This document shows positions 43,203 through 51,008 of a stretch of 64,000 nucleotides of DNA, in pieces; the stretch's first letter is position 1; every line of letters begins with the position of its first letter. Location: positions 62,001 through 126,000 of the forward strand of contig JACQDV010000002.1 in assembly GCA_016200915.1 (NCBI GenBank), given 5' to 3'. A model generated the notes under the pieces. That model was not told where the DNA came from. It saw only the letters and a list, made by a program, of their open reading frames with translations, and ran no database searches. The position numbers were made by a program, and so were the translations under genes. The DNA comes from Sphingobacteriales bacterium. GTDB lineage: Bacteria > Bacteroidota > Bacteroidia > Chitinophagales > Chitinophagaceae.

Positions 43203-46200
43203 CTACTTTCCTATTGCTACTTTTTTCATTTCATTCCTGCCATAAAAAGTTGGGAAATACATGAGCTCTGCTTTTGCTGGATTCAGGTGAAACTTACCTG
43301 TATATCTCGGTTCCAGTTCAATGGTAAACCGGTGTACCCCTGCGTACATCTTCTCTACAAAAATTACCGTTTTGTTTTTCAGGTATTCTTTATGATTGCT
43401 CCAATAATCCTGTTTCTTTTCGGCGTAAGTACATCCTGCCGGTATGGGAATTTCTATTTGTACATATTCAGCATCTTTCAACGCATTCACTTCAACCTGC
43501 ATTTGAATTTTCTCACCTGCTTTTAATAAATTCATCTGCCTCCCATTTTTTTCAAACCACGAGCGAATAATAAAATTATTTGTTACGGGTTCCGGATTTG
43601 GATTAAATACTTTTTGATAAGCAGTAAAGTAAACCATTCCTCCACCCGTTTTATCAATCTGCAAATTCTTAACTGAAGGAGTTTTAATCGTGAATGGAAA
43701 ATCTTTTATTGTACAATTAGTATCACCTGTAATTCTTAATGATGCCGGAACTGTTATATTACTTACCGTAAATCGTGGCAAAATAGTTGAAACAATAGAT
43801 GCTGCTTCAACTGTATTTGTCCATCGGCCATACTTTCGCTTCTCCATGAAGTATTGAATAATATGATTTAATTCTTCTGAATAATTGCCATCTTTTTCCA
43901 GCACTTTATAGGCTTCCACAGTAGTGGCGGTAGCATTGCGATTCCACCACCAACCTTCTTCCCCAAAGTATAAACTACCTAACATGGTTTCATGTTTTTG
44001 TTTCAGCAATTTCTTCAGTTCAGCATTACAATCCATTTTCTGTTGTTGCTTAATACTTACATACTGCCATTGCTGGTGAACACTCAACGAGTCAAATGGA
44101 ATAGCTGTTAAGTAAGTTTCAAAATTCATAAAATGGTTTGCCTCACTCAGTGTCAGTAATGTATTGAGCAAATCATCTCTTTTTAAATCAGGTAATTGAT
44201 TTTGCAGATAAAGTAATGCATTGCGAATATTACTTTCCAGTTCAACATCTCCCCGCATAGTTAAAAGTGTTTTTACAATATAATTGGTGATTGAAAGATT
44301 GGTCTTGCCGTTTTCCCACCAGGGCCAGCCACCTTCATACAACTGTGCCTTTTGAATTTTATCTTTTAACCTGGTGATCTCTTTATCATCTTTAAATTTT
44401 TGATTCAGAAATAACTGAATCTTTTTCACCATCACTAATCCTTTTAGTTTAGAAGTGGTTTGCTCCATACAGTAATACGGATAATTTTTCAGCAAATCAA
44501 GTTCGCTTAGTAAAACATCCAATGTATTATTTTGTGCATGCAGTGTAACTGTACTGCTGCCGGGTTGTGCTTTAAATGCAACAACCGTATCACCGTTTAA
44601 CACCCAAAAATTTCCAATGGTTTCTCCGGTTCCTTTCTTAACAACCGGTATCTTCCTCAATTCACCATCAGCATAACCATTGACAGAACGAATGGAATAT
44701 TGTGCTGATAAAGTATCCATATCAACGGCAACAACCATCAACTCACTTGTATCAGCGCTATTCGTTTTAATTGCCGATTCTTTTTCGAAGACTGTTTTGT
44801 TATTAATACTAAAATGTTCTTTAACAGAGTTATCCTCCGCAGCATAATTTGTTTTCTTACCAATAAACAGTACGCTATCACCTTCTACTAAAAATTGCGG
44901 GGCAGAAAGCTGGGCCAACAGCGGTTTAAATGATTTTATGTTCACCGAAGTTTTAGCAATTCGTCTCTTTTTATCCATGCCTATTACAAAAGTTTGCCAA
45001 CTGGTAATATTATCTGGATAAGTAACTGCGAATTTTGCTTCCCCTTTTTTGTTGGTGATTAAGTTAGGTTGCCAGAATGCATAATCCCTGAACTTTTCCC
45101 GAAGAGATGACCCTGTTATAAAATCTTTAGTGTTTATTATTATTACACCGTCTGCGGCCCTGGCTCCATATAAGCTTACTGCTGCTGCACCTTTTAATAT
45201 GGAAAAATACATACCGTTGGTATCTAACCCGGCAGGCAGATCATCCATAGGAACGCCATTTACTACATATAATGGTTGTGATCCGAATCCAGCGGAAGAA
45301 ATTCCCCGCACTGTAATTTTTGTATTTGCACCCGGGGAATAAGCACCCGTTACAGAAACTCCGAAAACCTTACCAGATAAAACACTGGTAATATTGTTAG
45401 CGCTGATTGTTACCATAGATCCCGTTAAATCTTTTCGCTTAGCAGTTCCATATCCTACTACCACTACTTCATCCAAATGTGCTTCAGAAACTTTTAAACC
45501 AGCTACAATACTTTCCGTTTCAAAAGCATTTAATTTAATCCTTATTTCTTTTGATACATATCCAACTGCACTGATCACTAATGTATAGTTACCTGCATTT
45601 ATGCCTTTTAACTCAAAATCTCCATTTGTATTTGAAGATGTACGTGTTTTGTACCCCTTTATCATAACTACTGCACCAATAACAGGCGATTTACCTTTTT
45701 CATCAATTATCCTGCCCTTTACAGATGCATTGCCAGACATCACCCGCACTTCAGGTATCGAGTTAATACTCTCTATCATGTTTTTTTCTTTCGTTTCTAC
45801 TTTTTCCTGTGGAGCTGGTGCTTTTAAATAATCATCTAATTCAGCATTGTAAAAAGTAAAATCTCCTTTGTTTATTTTTAAGCATGTAGAAGAATCAGGT
45901 TTCATTACGATTTCCTTTAATTGCATCACATAATTTTTATTAGTGATGAGTACCAATTCATATTTACCCGGTTCTAATGATGAGAATTGAAAGGAACCAT
46001 CCATACGCACTGCCTTTTTCCATGGATTATTTTTAGGAAATAGTATAATATAATGCCAGGCTGAATCTTTAAAGAGATTCAGTACCAGCTTTCCATATCC
46101 TTGTTTTGTGTCATAATAATTGAATCCATAATTACCGTAAAAAGCCGGTATAATTTCTTTTTTGTATTGAATAAGAGGAGGTGCAGCAATCGTATCTCCT

Positions 46201-48980
46201 AAATTCCAGACCTCATTCTTAACAATTGGTAATTTAATTTCTTTTGCATCAGGGGAGAACAGACGGCTCTTTTCCAAACGAACCATACTTGGTTTGATCC
46301 TGTATTCGTAACCCGGTTCAAAATCAAACTTAAAATCAAAAGCACCCGGCTTAAAATACTGGAGTTGGGCATTGCGGGTAAACGGGCCCACAACATGCTT
46401 TCTGTTTGAACCCAGGTAAAACAATTTTTCATCCTGCCATATATAGCCATTATTTGTTCGGTAATCATTCTCCAGTTGCCAAAGACTGCTTTCTAATTCG
46501 TTTCGTTCAGAATCTGTCCAATAAGCAGGCATAACATAAGAAACACTATGAGGTGGCAGGTTCTTTATATCAATAAAAATATCATGCTTGTAATTAGGCT
46601 GCAGGTAAATGCTGTCTATTTGAATGTATCTGTCTCTTAGCCGGAAGGCTACTTGTGTATATCCCGGGTAAACCGGAAAACTGTAAACAGATTTATCAGT
46701 TGTTCCATTATAATATGCCAGTTGCCTGTTAATATAAAGCAGGTGTATTTCCTGCGGCACACCACTATCAACTGCAAACACAGATAATTGCGGCGCATAA
46801 TCATTGATATAATTTTTTACGATTTCCATGCCATTAACAGGAAAAAGCAGCTGATAGTAGCGCATTGTGTCCAATCCGAATTTATTAATCCACTGCTTAT
46901 GTCTGCCTAACAAAAATGATTTTTTGGATACCGCTATTCCCATTTCAAAATTGTCTCTAACAATTCTTCGTGGAGATTTAAACCGGTGAAGAAATGGGGG
47001 TTCTGGCATATTAATATCTTTTGCAAACTGGCTGTTATAGCTCACTGCTGTAAGATTCATTCCTGCCAATGGCCTGTTTTTATAATCAACAGCTTTAACA
47101 GTAATAGTATCTTTCATCCCGGGAAAAACAGTAGTGGTTCCGTTGATTTGTAATGAAGCTACTTTATCCATCAATACTATATTTTCAGCCCCTTTTTTTT
47201 CCTCTCCTGCCCATATATATTGCCATTCAACCTTGTAAGATTTTCCTTTGGGCAGTTTGCGTTTCCATACAATCACTGCATCATTTCCGGAAGACTTATC
47301 AATAATTTTATTACCATAAAAAACAGTGAAGTGAACCGGAACTTTATTAGGATTATACAATACAAATCCACTGGTATCCTGCTGCTGCAATCTTGTAAAA
47401 CTGAGCCGGTAATCAGTTTTTAATTCATAGTAGTTGTTACATATACTTTTACCTTTTTCATCGTCCACATCAAAATCGTAATCTTCTGTATAGGCATCTA
47501 ATTTTTGCGCATAGGGATAATTAACAGGAATAAATTTATCAGTATAACTTTTCATTAAAGTACCCTTTGCATTTTCCTGCTTCCCATTTTTTAAATACAC
47601 GGCAAATATTGAATCCGCTGTTTGCTTTACATCTATCACATTTGATTCCGGTTCATAGGAAACAGAAATAGTTTTTTCCTGCACTTCATTATTGCTGTTT
47701 AAAAAGGTGGCGATCGCTTTTATTTCCATTGATGCCGGAGGCAGAACGGTTGCAGGAATTTCAAACTTTGTATCCGCATCTATGGCAAGAAGTTTTTCAG
47801 CTGTCCAGATAGTGTCGGGCACATACAAAGTATCCTTATACCATTTGGAAATTTTACCGGCAAGCAACTGCAATTTTATTTTCCCGTCCATTAAAGAAAG
47901 CCCGTTGGCATCTTTAGCATTAGCAAAAAATGTTAAAGTATCCGTTAAATAATAATTTTCTTTTTGAGAACGGATTTCATAAGTGCTTACTTCATCCAGC
48001 AAATAATCTTTCATTCTAAAGCTCTTCCATAAAACTTTTTTATTCTTCTTATTACGAAACTCAAGATTATAAGACATATCGCTTTTTAAAGAATCTCCCA
48101 ATACAAAATCATAAACAAAAGCACCCGGACTTATTGGTTGTATAAAGGCTAATTTTTTATTGACGTATTCACCATATGCATCGTAATTAAGATACAGGCT
48201 TAACGGCTTTTTATATTGACGCAGGTGTTTATTAAATAAATAACCTTTTAATCGTAATGTATCTCCGGGTTTGTAAAGGGGTTTATTAAACAATACATAT
48301 CCCCGTTGTGGCGTATAACGCCGTCTTCTTTTAAACCATTCACTTGCCGGAGATTCAATCATTTTCTTAATAGTATAATATGGCCAGGTAATTACCTGGC
48401 CTGTTTTAGTAGCACGAAACTTTTGCCAGCGTCGTTTAGGCACACTGGTATATACATCATCTTTAGCATTAAGCGTCGCCAGTAAAGTATCACCTGTTAC
48501 ACCTGCTTTTACCAATGCATCCTCCGGAAACTTTTTTTCAACCTGCCATGTTTTTGCTTTTGAATCATACAAAATCTTTTTTCCATTTACCCAAACTGTG
48601 GCATTATCAAAATAATTACCGGCAACATCTCTTACTTCCAACTGAACTTTGTGCTGGTTATTAACCGGCATTACCAGTAAATTGGTTTGGCAGTAATAGT
48701 CAACTTGCAGCTCATTATCCTTTACAGAAAAAATGAGATAATTACCAACCGGCAATTCATCATAATCAAGGCTGTCTTTTCTAACAACTGCAAATGGTAC
48801 TTCATCCAGGTAATGATCGGGATTGGAAGTATTTTTCTTAATGTATTTTTCAGCAGTATCTGCCGGAATTTTATAAATGAATACCTGCCAGCTTTGTTTG
48901 CGGATGTTTTTTAAATCAGTTTGTCCATAAGTGTGGGCAGCAAGAAAAAGGATAATAAGCAGGAGTAAAAATTTCCTCAT
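43203..48980 (-). CDS. Alpha-2-macroglobulin family protein with embedded SusC-type plug
   Basis: This 1,925-residue exported protein has a signal peptide (about 1-19). It has the MG2-type start KPLYKPGDTLRLKGY (about 230) and the A2M core FWQPNLITNKKGEAKF (about 1300). The thioester motif C-M-E-Q is at Cys1504 within YYCMEQTTS, with helical thioester-domain sequence around it. Such proteins trap proteases in other bacteria. Unusually, residues about 1080-1290 are a SusC-like cassette. A carboxypeptidase-regulatory domain (VKGRIIDEKGKSPVIGAVVM, then GNYTLVISAVGYVSKEI) is followed by a TonB plug (VVVGYGTAKRKDLTGSM, ITVRGISSAGFGSQPLYVVN, SLYGARAADGVIIINTK). No beta-barrel follows. The frame is continuous throughout. 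The cassette lies where A2M proteins carry the region before MG7, close to the bait position. Confidence 0.88.
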   Translation of the reverse strand: MRKFLLLLIILFLAAHTYGQTDLKNIRKQSWQVFIYKIPADTAEKYIKKNTSNPDHYLDEVPFAVVRKDSLDYDELPVGNYLIFSVKDNELQVDYYCQTNLLVMPVNNQHKVQLEVRDVAGNYFDNATVWVNGKKILYDSKAKTWQVEKKFPEDALVKAGVTGDTLLATLNAKDDVYTSVPKRRWQKFRATKTGQVITWPYYTIKKMIESPASEWFKRRRRYTPQRGYVLFNKPLYKPGDTLRLKGYLFNKHLRQYKKPLSLYLNYDAYGEYVNKKLAFIQPISPGAFVYDFVLGDSLKSDMSYNLEFRNKKNKKVLWKSFRMKDYLLDEVSTYEIRSQKENYYLTDTLTFFANAKDANGLSLMDGKIKLQLLAGKISKWYKDTLYVPDTIWTAEKLLAIDADTKFEIPATVLPPASMEIKAIATFLNSNNEVQEKTISVSYEPESNVIDVKQTADSIFAVYLKNGKQENAKGTLMKSYTDKFIPVNYPYAQKLDAYTEDYDFDVDDEKGKSICNNYYELKTDYRLSFTRLQQQDTSGFVLYNPNKVPVHFTVFYGNKIIDKSSGNDAVIVWKRKLPKGKSYKVEWQYIWAGEEKKGAENIVLMDKVASLQINGTTTVFPGMKDTITVKAVDYKNRPLAGMNLTAVSYNSQFAKDINMPEPPFLHRFKSPRRIVRDNFEMGIAVSKKSFLLGRHKQWINKFGLDTMRYYQLLFPVNGMEIVKNYINDYAPQLSVFAVDSGVPQEIHLLYINRQLAYYNGTTDKSVYSFPVYPGYTQVAFRLRDRYIQIDSIYLQPNYKHDIFIDIKNLPPHSVSYVMPAYWTDSERNELESSLWQLENDYRTNNGYIWQDEKLFYLGSNRKHVVGPFTRNAQLQYFKPGAFDFKFDFEPGYEYRIKPSMVRLEKSRLFSPDAKEIKLPIVKNEVWNLGDTIAAPPLIQYKKEIIPAFYGNYGFNYYDTKQGYGKLVLNLFKDSAWHYIILFPKNNPWKKAVRMDGSFQFSSLEPGKYELVLITNKNYVMQLKEIVMKPDSSTCLKINKGDFTFYNAELDDYLKAPAPQEKVETKEKNMIESINSIPEVRVMSGNASVKGRIIDEKGKSPVIGAVVMIKGYKTRTSSNTNGDFELKGINAGNYTLVISAVGYVSKEIRIKLNAFETESIVAGLKVSEAHLDEVVVVGYGTAKRKDLTGSMVTISANNITSVLSGKVFGVSVTGAYSPGANTKITVRGISSAGFGSQPLYVVNGVPMDDLPAGLDTNGMYFSILKGAAAVSLYGARAADGVIIINTKDFITGSSLREKFRDYAFWQPNLITNKKGEAKFAVTYPDNITSWQTFVIGMDKKRRIAKTSVNIKSFKPLLAQLSAPQFLVEGDSVLFIGKKTNYAAEDNSVKEHFSINNKTVFEKESAIKTNSADTSELMVVAVDMDTLSAQYSIRSVNGYADGELRKIPVVKKGTGETIGNFWVLNGDTVVAFKAQPGSSTVTLHAQNNTLDVLLSELDLLKNYPYYCMEQTTSKLKGLVMVKKIQLFLNQKFKDDKEITRLKDKIQKAQLYEGGWPWWENGKTNLSITNYIVKTLLTMRGDVELESNIRNALLYLQNQLPDLKRDDLLNTLLTLSEANHFMNFETYLTAIPFDSLSVHQQWQYVSIKQQQKMDCNAELKKLLKQKHETMLGSLYFGEEGWWWNRNATATTVEAYKVLEKDGNYSEELNHIIQYFMEKRKYGRWTNTVEAASIVSTILPRFTVSNITVPASLRITGDTNCTIKDFPFTIKTPSVKNLQIDKTGGGMVYFTAYQKVFNPNPEPVTNNFIIRSWFEKNGRQMNLLKAGEKIQMQVEVNALKDAEYVQIEIPIPAGCTYAEKKQDYWSNHKEYLKNKTVIFVEKMYAGVHRFTIELEPRYTGKFHLNPAKAELMYFPTFYGRNEMKKVAIGK

Positions 48981-49181: not shown

Positions 49182-51008
49182 ATGTACAGAACTCACACCT
49201 GTGGCGAATTAAGACTGGCTGATGTAAACAAAGAAGTAACCCTTGCCGGATGGGTACAAACTGTTCGTAAGTTTGGCAGTATCACTTTTGTTGACCTGCG
49301 TGACCGCTATGGCATTACTCAATTATTATTCAATGAAAATTTGAATGCTCAACTGGATGAAAATCCTTTGGGTCGTGAGTTTGTATTACAGGCCAAAGGA
49401 AAAGTAAATGAACGCAGCAGTAAGAATGCAAATATTCCTACCGGTGAAATTGAAATACTGGTGAGTGAATTCTCTGTTTTGAATAAAGCCGTTACTCCAC
49501 CTTTCACTATACAGGATGATACAGATGGCGGTGATGATTTGAGAATGAAATATCGTTTCCTTGATTTACGCCGTAATACAGTAAAGAAAAATTTAGAACT
49601 GCGTTACTCGGTAAACCGAAGTGCCAGAAACTACCTGCATGAAAACAATTTCATGGATATTGAAACACCTTTCTTAATTAAATCAACTCCGGAAGGTGCG
49701 AGGGATTTTGTGGTTCCATCAAGAATGAATGCGGGACAGTTTTATGCATTACCACAATCACCGCAAACATTCAAACAATTACTGATGGTAAGTGGTTATG
49801 ATCGCTATTATCAAATTGTAAAATGTTTTCGTGATGAAGATTTGAGAGCTGACCGTCAACCAGAGTTTACACAGATTGACTGCGAAATGAGTTTTGTACA
49901 GCAGGAAGATATCCTCAACATGTTTGAAGGTTTGATAAAAAGAATTTTTAAAGATGTAAAAGGCATTGACTATACAGAAACAGTGGAACGTATGAGCTGG
50001 GAAGACGCAATGTGGCAATATGGAAATGATAAACCAGATATTCGTTTTGGAATGAAGCTTTGCAATCTTAAGTTTCCTGCACACACATTCCCAACAAAAG
50101 AAAGTATTTCATCGTTGATTGATGGTGCCAATTTCCAGGTATTTGATGGTGCTGAAACAGTAATAGCTATTGCCGTTCCCGGATGCAGTGAATACACAAG
50201 AAAACAAACGGATGAATTAACTGAGTGGGTGAAACGTCCGCAGATTGGAATGAAAGGTTTGGTATTTATTAAGTGTAACGCAGACGGAACTTATAAAAGC
50301 AGTGCAGATAAATTTTACAGCGAAGAAAAATTAAAAGCCATTGCAGAGGCAGCTGATGCTAAAGCAGGCGATTTAATATTGATTTTAGCCGGTGCAGAAG
50401 AAAGAACCCGTAAAGCCACTAGTGATTTACGGATGTATATGGGTGATAAATTAGGTTTGCGTAAAGCAGATGATTTTAAATTATTGTGGGTACTCGACTT
50501 CCCATTGTTTGAATATGCTGAAGAAGAAAACAGGTGGGTAGCCCGTCACCATCCGTTCACGTCACCTAAGCCAGACCATATTGAAGTGATGATTAATAAC
50601 AATCCTGTTATTGAAAATGCAGCTGAATATTTAAAACATCCTTATGCCAATATTAAAGCCAATGCTTATGATATGGTGCTGAATGGTAATGAAATTGGTG
50701 GTGGCTCCATCCGTATTTTCCAGAGAGAGTTACAGGAAAAAATGTTTGAGGCTTTGGGAATGGATGCAACAGAACAACAGCACAAGTTTGGTTTCTTATT
50801 AGGTGCATTTGAATATGGTGCTCCGCCACATGGAGGACTTGCTTTTGGTTTCGACCGTTTGTGTGCTATCCTTGGTGGCAGCGAAAGCATCCGTGATTTT
50901 ATCGCCTTCCCTAAAAATAACAGCGGAAGAGATGTGATGCTGGATGCGCCAAGTACCATTGATGATAAGCAATTAGTTGAACTGAGTATTAAACTGGATG
51001 TGAAATAA
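49182..51008 (+). CDS. aspS: Aspartyl-tRNA synthetase
   Basis: AspRS charges tRNA-Asp in the cytoplasm. The 608-residue bacterial-type protein has an N-terminal OB fold ([20 protein letters not shown] onward). The class II core contains [13 protein letters not shown] (about 193-205) and motif 2 in [18 protein letters not shown]. The bacterial GAD insertion spans about 290-420. Motif 3 is in [17 protein letters not shown] near the C-terminus. The last 37 codons (50898-51008) are repeated downstream at 51545-51658 with mostly synonymous changes, flanking a toxin-antitoxin pair. The gene itself is intact. Confidence 0.97.

Follow-up and report, generated by a model that had tools for sequence, protein, structure and literature searches.

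The window analysed here, 64,000 nucleotides from the genome of a Sphingobacteriales bacterium, carries on its minus strand a gene (43203-48980) whose single unbroken frame encodes a 1,925-residue protein. The product is an exported thioester (type I) alpha-2-macroglobulin (A2M) that contains the N-terminus of a SusC/RagA receptor. A sequence-only reading of this DNA had described the continuous frame, without naming its strand, along with MG2-type sequence, an A2M core and a C-M-E-Q motif at Cys1504, and all of these held up. Both the A2M and the bMG10 domain scored above their Pfam cut-offs, MG2 was recognized below its own, and the thioester Cys, Glu and Gln were invariant across 34 aligned relatives. 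In the AlphaFold model, the macroglobulin (MG) architecture with its thioester domain (TED) matched C3, C4, A2M and ECAM with Z scores of 23-28 over ~500-615 residues. The signal peptide is of the signal peptidase I (SPase I) type, and we infer from the sequence that the product is soluble and periplasmic, without a lipid anchor.

A2M proteins trap proteases by means of a bait region and a thioester, and plug domains normally sit inside the SusC/RagA barrel. Residues 1086-1289 hold the full SusC/RagA N-terminus, with N-terminal extension (NTE), TonB box and plug, and no barrel. The carboxypeptidase-regulatory domain and plug that the sequence-only reading had put at about residues 1080-1290 were recovered by Pfam (1087-1174), by NCBIfam TIGR04056 (SusC/RagA; 1086-1286, E 1.8e-49) and by a phmmer search of the PDB, in which SusC/RagA chains matched over 1084-1302 (best E 3.8e-23). 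The TIGR04056 match covers only positions 2-205 of 981 and scores 168.9 bits against a family cut-off of 368.25: it is confined to the N-terminus and the 22-strand beta-barrel is missing, as had been noted. An intact TonB box, LDEVVVVGYG, which the sequence-only reading had passed over, stands between the two domains. It is the equivalent of the VDEVVV motif of Bt1763, which is experimentally required for transport (PMC7782687).

Modelled on its own, the cassette was predicted to have a well-ordered NTE (pLDDT ~97; Z 14.6 against the TTL domain of carboxypeptidase D and 12.7 against the SusC NTE 9hfj), followed by a disordered TonB box. The previously proposed plug fold of residues 1179-1289 is supported by these predictions, confidently along only part of its length: the C-terminal half reached a pLDDT of 85-92 and Foldseek retrieved the Bt1763 and dextran SusC structures, while mid-plug values stayed at 50-62. 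In the large model, for which the alignment was shallow, the plug was of low confidence, and modelling the cassette alone improved only the C-terminal half. A VIA-align comparison returned mostly NTE-like folds and carries no weight against the plug.

The position of the cassette was derived from structure comparison. The AlphaFold model of residues 750-1925 could be aligned with C3, C4, A2M and ECAM starting at its residue 546 (residue 1295 of the protein; 743/764 in C3 and 963 in ECAM); likewise, a hidden Markov model of the post-cassette segment mapped onto ECAM from residue ~960. The disordered bait of ECAM spans Arg923-Leu942 (PMC4498604). Because homology resumes just past that bait, the model supports placing the cassette directly before the first MG6-alpha strand, between MG6-beta and MG6-alpha, at the site of the bait in A2M and of the anaphylatoxin insert in C3, in line with the earlier suggestion that it lies near the bait position. 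The likeness to a bait preceding MG6-alpha is one of position only.

Table 1. Features of the A2M gene and of its neighbour, with positions in the window
Feature	Position	Strand	Basis
Whole gene, exported alpha-2-macroglobulin with SusC-type cassette in the predicted bait slot	43203..48980	-	Open reading frame, Pfam, NCBIfam
Signal peptide, residues 1-20, SPase I type, without lipobox	48921..48980	-	Sequence; comparison with other A2Ms
MG2 domain, residues 226-296	48093..48305	-	Pfam E 1.4e-4, under its curated cut-off
Carboxypeptidase-regulatory-like domain = SusC NTE, residues 1087-1174	45459..45722	-	Pfam PF13715 CarbopepD_reg_2, E 1.2e-21
TonB box LDEVVVVGYG, residues 1169-1178	45447..45476	-	Sequence motif
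SusC-type plug, residues 1179-1289	45114..45446	-	TIGR04056, PDB SusC/RagA matches, AF2/Foldseek
A2M Pfam domain = first part of MG6-alpha/MG7, residues 1301-1380	44841..45080	-	Pfam, structure comparison
Thioester (TED) helical domain, residues ~1486-1739	43764..44525	-	AF2 helices; Z ~20 against C5/C4 thioester domains
Thioester motif C-M-E-Q, Cys1504-Gln1507	44460..44471	-	Sequence, alignment of relatives
bMG10, C-terminal macroglobulin domain, residues 1806-1910	43251..43565	-	Pfam
Class II tRNA synthetase with GAD domain (aspS-like), divergently oriented neighbour, outside the system	49182..51008	+	Neighbourhood comparison

SusC N-terminal material in the A2M bait slot is recurrent across the phylum, an extent that could not have been seen from the window. 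A core match at E 1e-15 was present in 33 of 197 genomes of the same family, and full genes with NTE, TonB box and plug immediately ahead of the A2M domain occurred in ~25 of its genera; some members lacked most of the plug or carried divergent inserts. Other families of the class share the architecture. The sequence-only reading had named an assembly chimera as a way in which its view could fail. This, or an artefact of gene prediction, is ruled out for practical purposes, because full or near-full cassettes occupy the same place in ~25 genera and in several families, and some of the carriers are single-contig genomes. Relative to the nearest relative, the cassette is 53% identical and the core 80%.

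To describe what fills the slot, we compared the region upstream of MG6-alpha with the remainder of each protein in 139 further A2Ms (31 from the family set and 108 from a phylum search sampled among the better-scoring matches); the sequences are related, so that counts do not represent independent events. A strict TonB-box pattern occurred in the slots of 37 A2Ms and not once in ~139,000 residues outside them, with 0.085 hits per survey in shuffled slots. The same restriction to the slot was seen for a looser TonB-box pattern and for the plug motif LxGKVAGV, which were present in 12 and 7, respectively, of 86 slots without a detectable NTE or plug domain. The core tree separated the clade of the 1,925-residue protein (33 sequences), a second clade marked by NETAFF (70) and an outgroup clade (37). 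At least one of six SusC motifs was found in 27/33 slots of the first, 27/69 of the second and 0/37 of the outgroup, against 1.8, 1.3 and 1.1 in shuffled slots. Slot contents in the two motif-bearing clades form a gradation: full cassettes, slots with only the NTE or only the TonB box, and slots with just short SusC motifs whose order has changed; many relatives have no complete plug. Such fragment-only slots likewise lay beyond the reach of the first reading.

One further family (f4) provided a denser sample. At least one SusC motif was present in 46 of its 62 slots (TonB box in 25, LxGKVAGV in 23, IRGxxS in 15 and YGxR in 8), compared with one match in 32,120 residues outside the slot of the same proteins and fewer than one per 62 shuffled slots. 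The three other motifs were nearly as frequent as the TonB box, often without it, and in 10 of ~25 multi-motif slots the order of the motifs was foreign to SusC. Contents varied even inside a single genus. Short motifs were retained in frame while the intervening sequence was not, and a 39-residue bait peptide matched open reading frames of SusC length (~1,000 residues) within its genus at 58-66%. The slot also captures other periplasmic modules, either solitary NTE-like domains or what looks like an OmpA-type TSP3 linker.

The bait slots of L264, L267, L269, L294 and L295 contain a stretch (DGDGVADYEDACPTVPGLYQYNGCPKP) reminiscent of the TSP3 linker found in OmpA proteins, which suggests that other outer-membrane proteins are also copied into bait slots. 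This linker was identified as a motif by eye; a Pfam scan of the first 500 residues of L264 did not report TSP3. In a more distant A2M, L077, an NTE-like domain precedes a plug-like fragment that belongs to a different type of TonB receptor (INIRGGRTDGSQIIIDGV), ~100 residues before MG6-alpha, and judging by this sequence the theme may reach beyond SusC.

Among full cassettes, the TonB box was at least as conserved in A2Ms (3.41 bits per position) as in SusCs (3.29), whereas the NTE (2.06 vs 2.37) and the plug (2.54 vs 2.78) were less so. A simple lipoprotein pattern was found in none of the 39 box-bearing A2Ms and in six box-less ones. In a tree of cassettes, those of A2Ms and SusCs interleave, with a minimum of nine changes, 2-3 of which are forced by well-supported branches; on this basis the sequences indicate that cassettes have passed between SusCs and A2Ms more than once. 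A single origin of the cassette is contradicted by the same interleaving, although most deep forks lack resolution and the number of captures is uncertain. In several close pairs, to which the comparison was limited because dS saturates at greater distance, dN/dS of the slot was 4-6 times that of the remainder of the gene, and it stayed below 0.35 in all pairs measured. Two species pairs, L264/L267 and L265/L268, had a far lower dS in the slot than elsewhere (0.015 vs 0.459 and 0.115 vs 0.462), consistent with exchange of the slot by recent local recombination.

The A2M gene lies among dnaJ, grpE, a tRNA synthetase gene, a gene for an MgsA-type AAA protein and uvrA. Only the tRNA synthetase gene is a conserved neighbour, remaining adjacent in ~ten relatives, which points to long vertical inheritance of the A2M gene. 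No SusC, SusD, TonB or PBP1C gene was found in the neighbourhoods here or in relatives, and an operon with any of these was dropped as an explanation, since only the tRNA synthetase is retained. Elsewhere, the genome encodes four TonB_C proteins and 11 SusCs above the family cut-off, in each of which the match runs from model position 1-2 to 981 and takes in the plug. It also encodes two other A2Ms. L103 (contig C71) is an ECAM-like putative lipoprotein with a CTEQ motif and a transpeptidase-domain open reading frame ~3 kb away; it falls in the outgroup clade and its slot has no SusC motif. L072 (contig C54) is a 2,077-residue A2M whose slot keeps a SusC-like AKRKDLTGA segment. Plug sequence has a further non-barrel location: a predicted M56 (BlaR1-like) membrane peptidase on contig C15 (L148:1324-3069, minus strand) ends in two tandem segments resembling the last part of the SusC plug (VVVDG...VLKGDAAIAIYGEKGNNGVIQVSTK).

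Among known systems, the bacterial type I A2Ms ECAM/YfhM of E. coli and SaA2M of Salmonella share the MG ring, the CxEQ thioester, periplasmic export and the bait slot before MG6-alpha (MG8 in bacterial numbering). ECAM, however, is an inner-membrane lipoprotein whose gene shares an operon with pbpC, and its disordered bait is short, whereas the 1,925-residue protein has neither lipobox nor pbpC neighbour, so that it falls outside the ECAM-PBP1C subtype, and carries a SusC cassette of ~200 residues. The order NTE (PF13715), TonB box and plug is that of SusC/RagA N-termini such as Bt1763, but here it lacks beta-barrel and SusD and is inserted inside another protein. In complement C3, C4 and C5, the anaphylatoxin is likewise a folded domain between two MG6 halves that is released or exposed on cleavage; the inserts are unrelated, a signalling peptide in C3 and, as we propose, a receptor mimic here. 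The integrated decoy domains of plant NLR immune receptors offer a parallel: there, a defence protein has repeatedly taken up, at a fixed place, copies of cellular proteins that come under attack. In the A2Ms we likewise found that sequence similar to a self target had been integrated more than once at a single site; the likeness is one of operation only, with no common sequence or mechanism, and an attack on SusC is an assumption of ours. We found no description of an A2M with TonB, plug or SusC sequence in the open-access papers searched, as the sequence-only reading had anticipated; this is not proof of absence, and comparable architectures are probably present in databases without annotation.

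Our preferred reading, held tentatively, is that the receptor sequence is itself the bait and acts as a self-mimicking decoy in a thioester trap. It draws on the position of the cassette, the invariant thioester residues, the SusC motifs concentrated in the slot but missing from the outgroup (the ECAM-type copy of this genome included), the bait peptide that matches SusC-length frames, the interleaved cassette tree, the lower identity of the cassette than of the core, and the rapid divergence and exchange of the slot in several pairs. With the bait slot filled by the periplasm-facing N-terminus of a SusC/RagA receptor, any protease, or toxin of another kind, arriving in the periplasm and attacking SusC transporters at their plug/TonB-box region would meet the same sequence in the A2M. 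By cutting the cassette it would release the MG6 insert, and by analogy with known A2Ms such cleavage would trigger the trap: the A2M would change conformation and the attacker would then be bound covalently through the Cys1504 thioester. Several points weigh against this proposal. The cassette is predicted to be largely folded, unlike a classical bait, even though its TonB box and linker are modelled as disordered, and any disordered peptide is able to serve as bait. No protease directed at SusC plugs is known to us. Conservation within the cassette peaks at the TonB box, yet a bait made for cleavage would not require this. In the protein's own sub-clade, where eight genera form one supported clade, descent of the cassette has been vertical, so turnover there is not fast. 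Finally, the motif patterns were composed after part of the data had been seen, although the controls were taken from the same proteins.

The strongest rival, possible though on balance unlikely, holds that NTE, TonB box and plug form a working TonB-binding unit, which would anchor an otherwise unanchored A2M to TonB-ExbBD, near incoming material, or allow TonB to pull on the slot. The conservation of the box, exceeding that of NTE and plug, made the TonB part of the docking idea in the sequence-only reading likelier, and some slots that no longer have either domain still keep the box. The box is also predicted to be disordered and accessible, as in the NTE of Bt1763 (PMC7782687), the genome offers four candidate TonB partners, and the lipoprotein-like pattern is confined to box-less A2Ms. 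Many slots, however, have plug motifs without a TonB box, or plug motifs in a new order. Because such slots are frequent, we favour bait by imitation: mimicry of the whole plug region accounts for box-less and reordered motifs, which TonB docking alone does not. Decoy and docking can both be true together.

Less probable still, a permissive slot may tolerate insertions and, given numerous SusC donors, undergo repeated capture and decay, leaving SusC sequence without a role. The fast evolution of the slot, its capture of other periplasmic modules and the differing contents within one genus would all fit such relics. They fit poorly with short motifs kept in frame while the sequence between them is lost, sometimes in non-SusC order, with a TonB box conserved more strongly than the rest, and with the ceiling on slot dN/dS. 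Very improbable is a role as plug for another SusC barrel that has none of its own, or as a module docking with SusC and SusD. Both plug ends face the periplasm in the topology of TonB-dependent transporters, so that entry of a tethered plug into a barrel is conceivable, but all 11 above-cut-off SusCs have a plug of their own, leaving no candidate for the separate barrel that the sequence-only reading had entertained. No SusC or SusD gene lies nearby, which leaves the SusD part of its docking idea without support, and many relatives lack a complete plug.

To our knowledge, the role of bacterial A2Ms is debated and no natural target protease has been established; a bait that copies SusC gives a hint, from sequence, of the targets to which these traps might be adapted. 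We put forward, with more reserve than the bait reading itself, that Bacteroidota have periplasmic A2M traps whose hypervariable bait is repeatedly renewed from their own TonB-dependent receptors, and sometimes from further proteins of the outer membrane. This would be an integrated-decoy system of bacteria, perhaps with coupling to TonB, that traps agents attacking nutrient receptors from inside. If TonB docking were true, the protein would be, as far as we know, the first non-barrel TonB client of such a kind. If the decoy reading is true, bacteria would share the logic of the integrated decoys of plant immunity.
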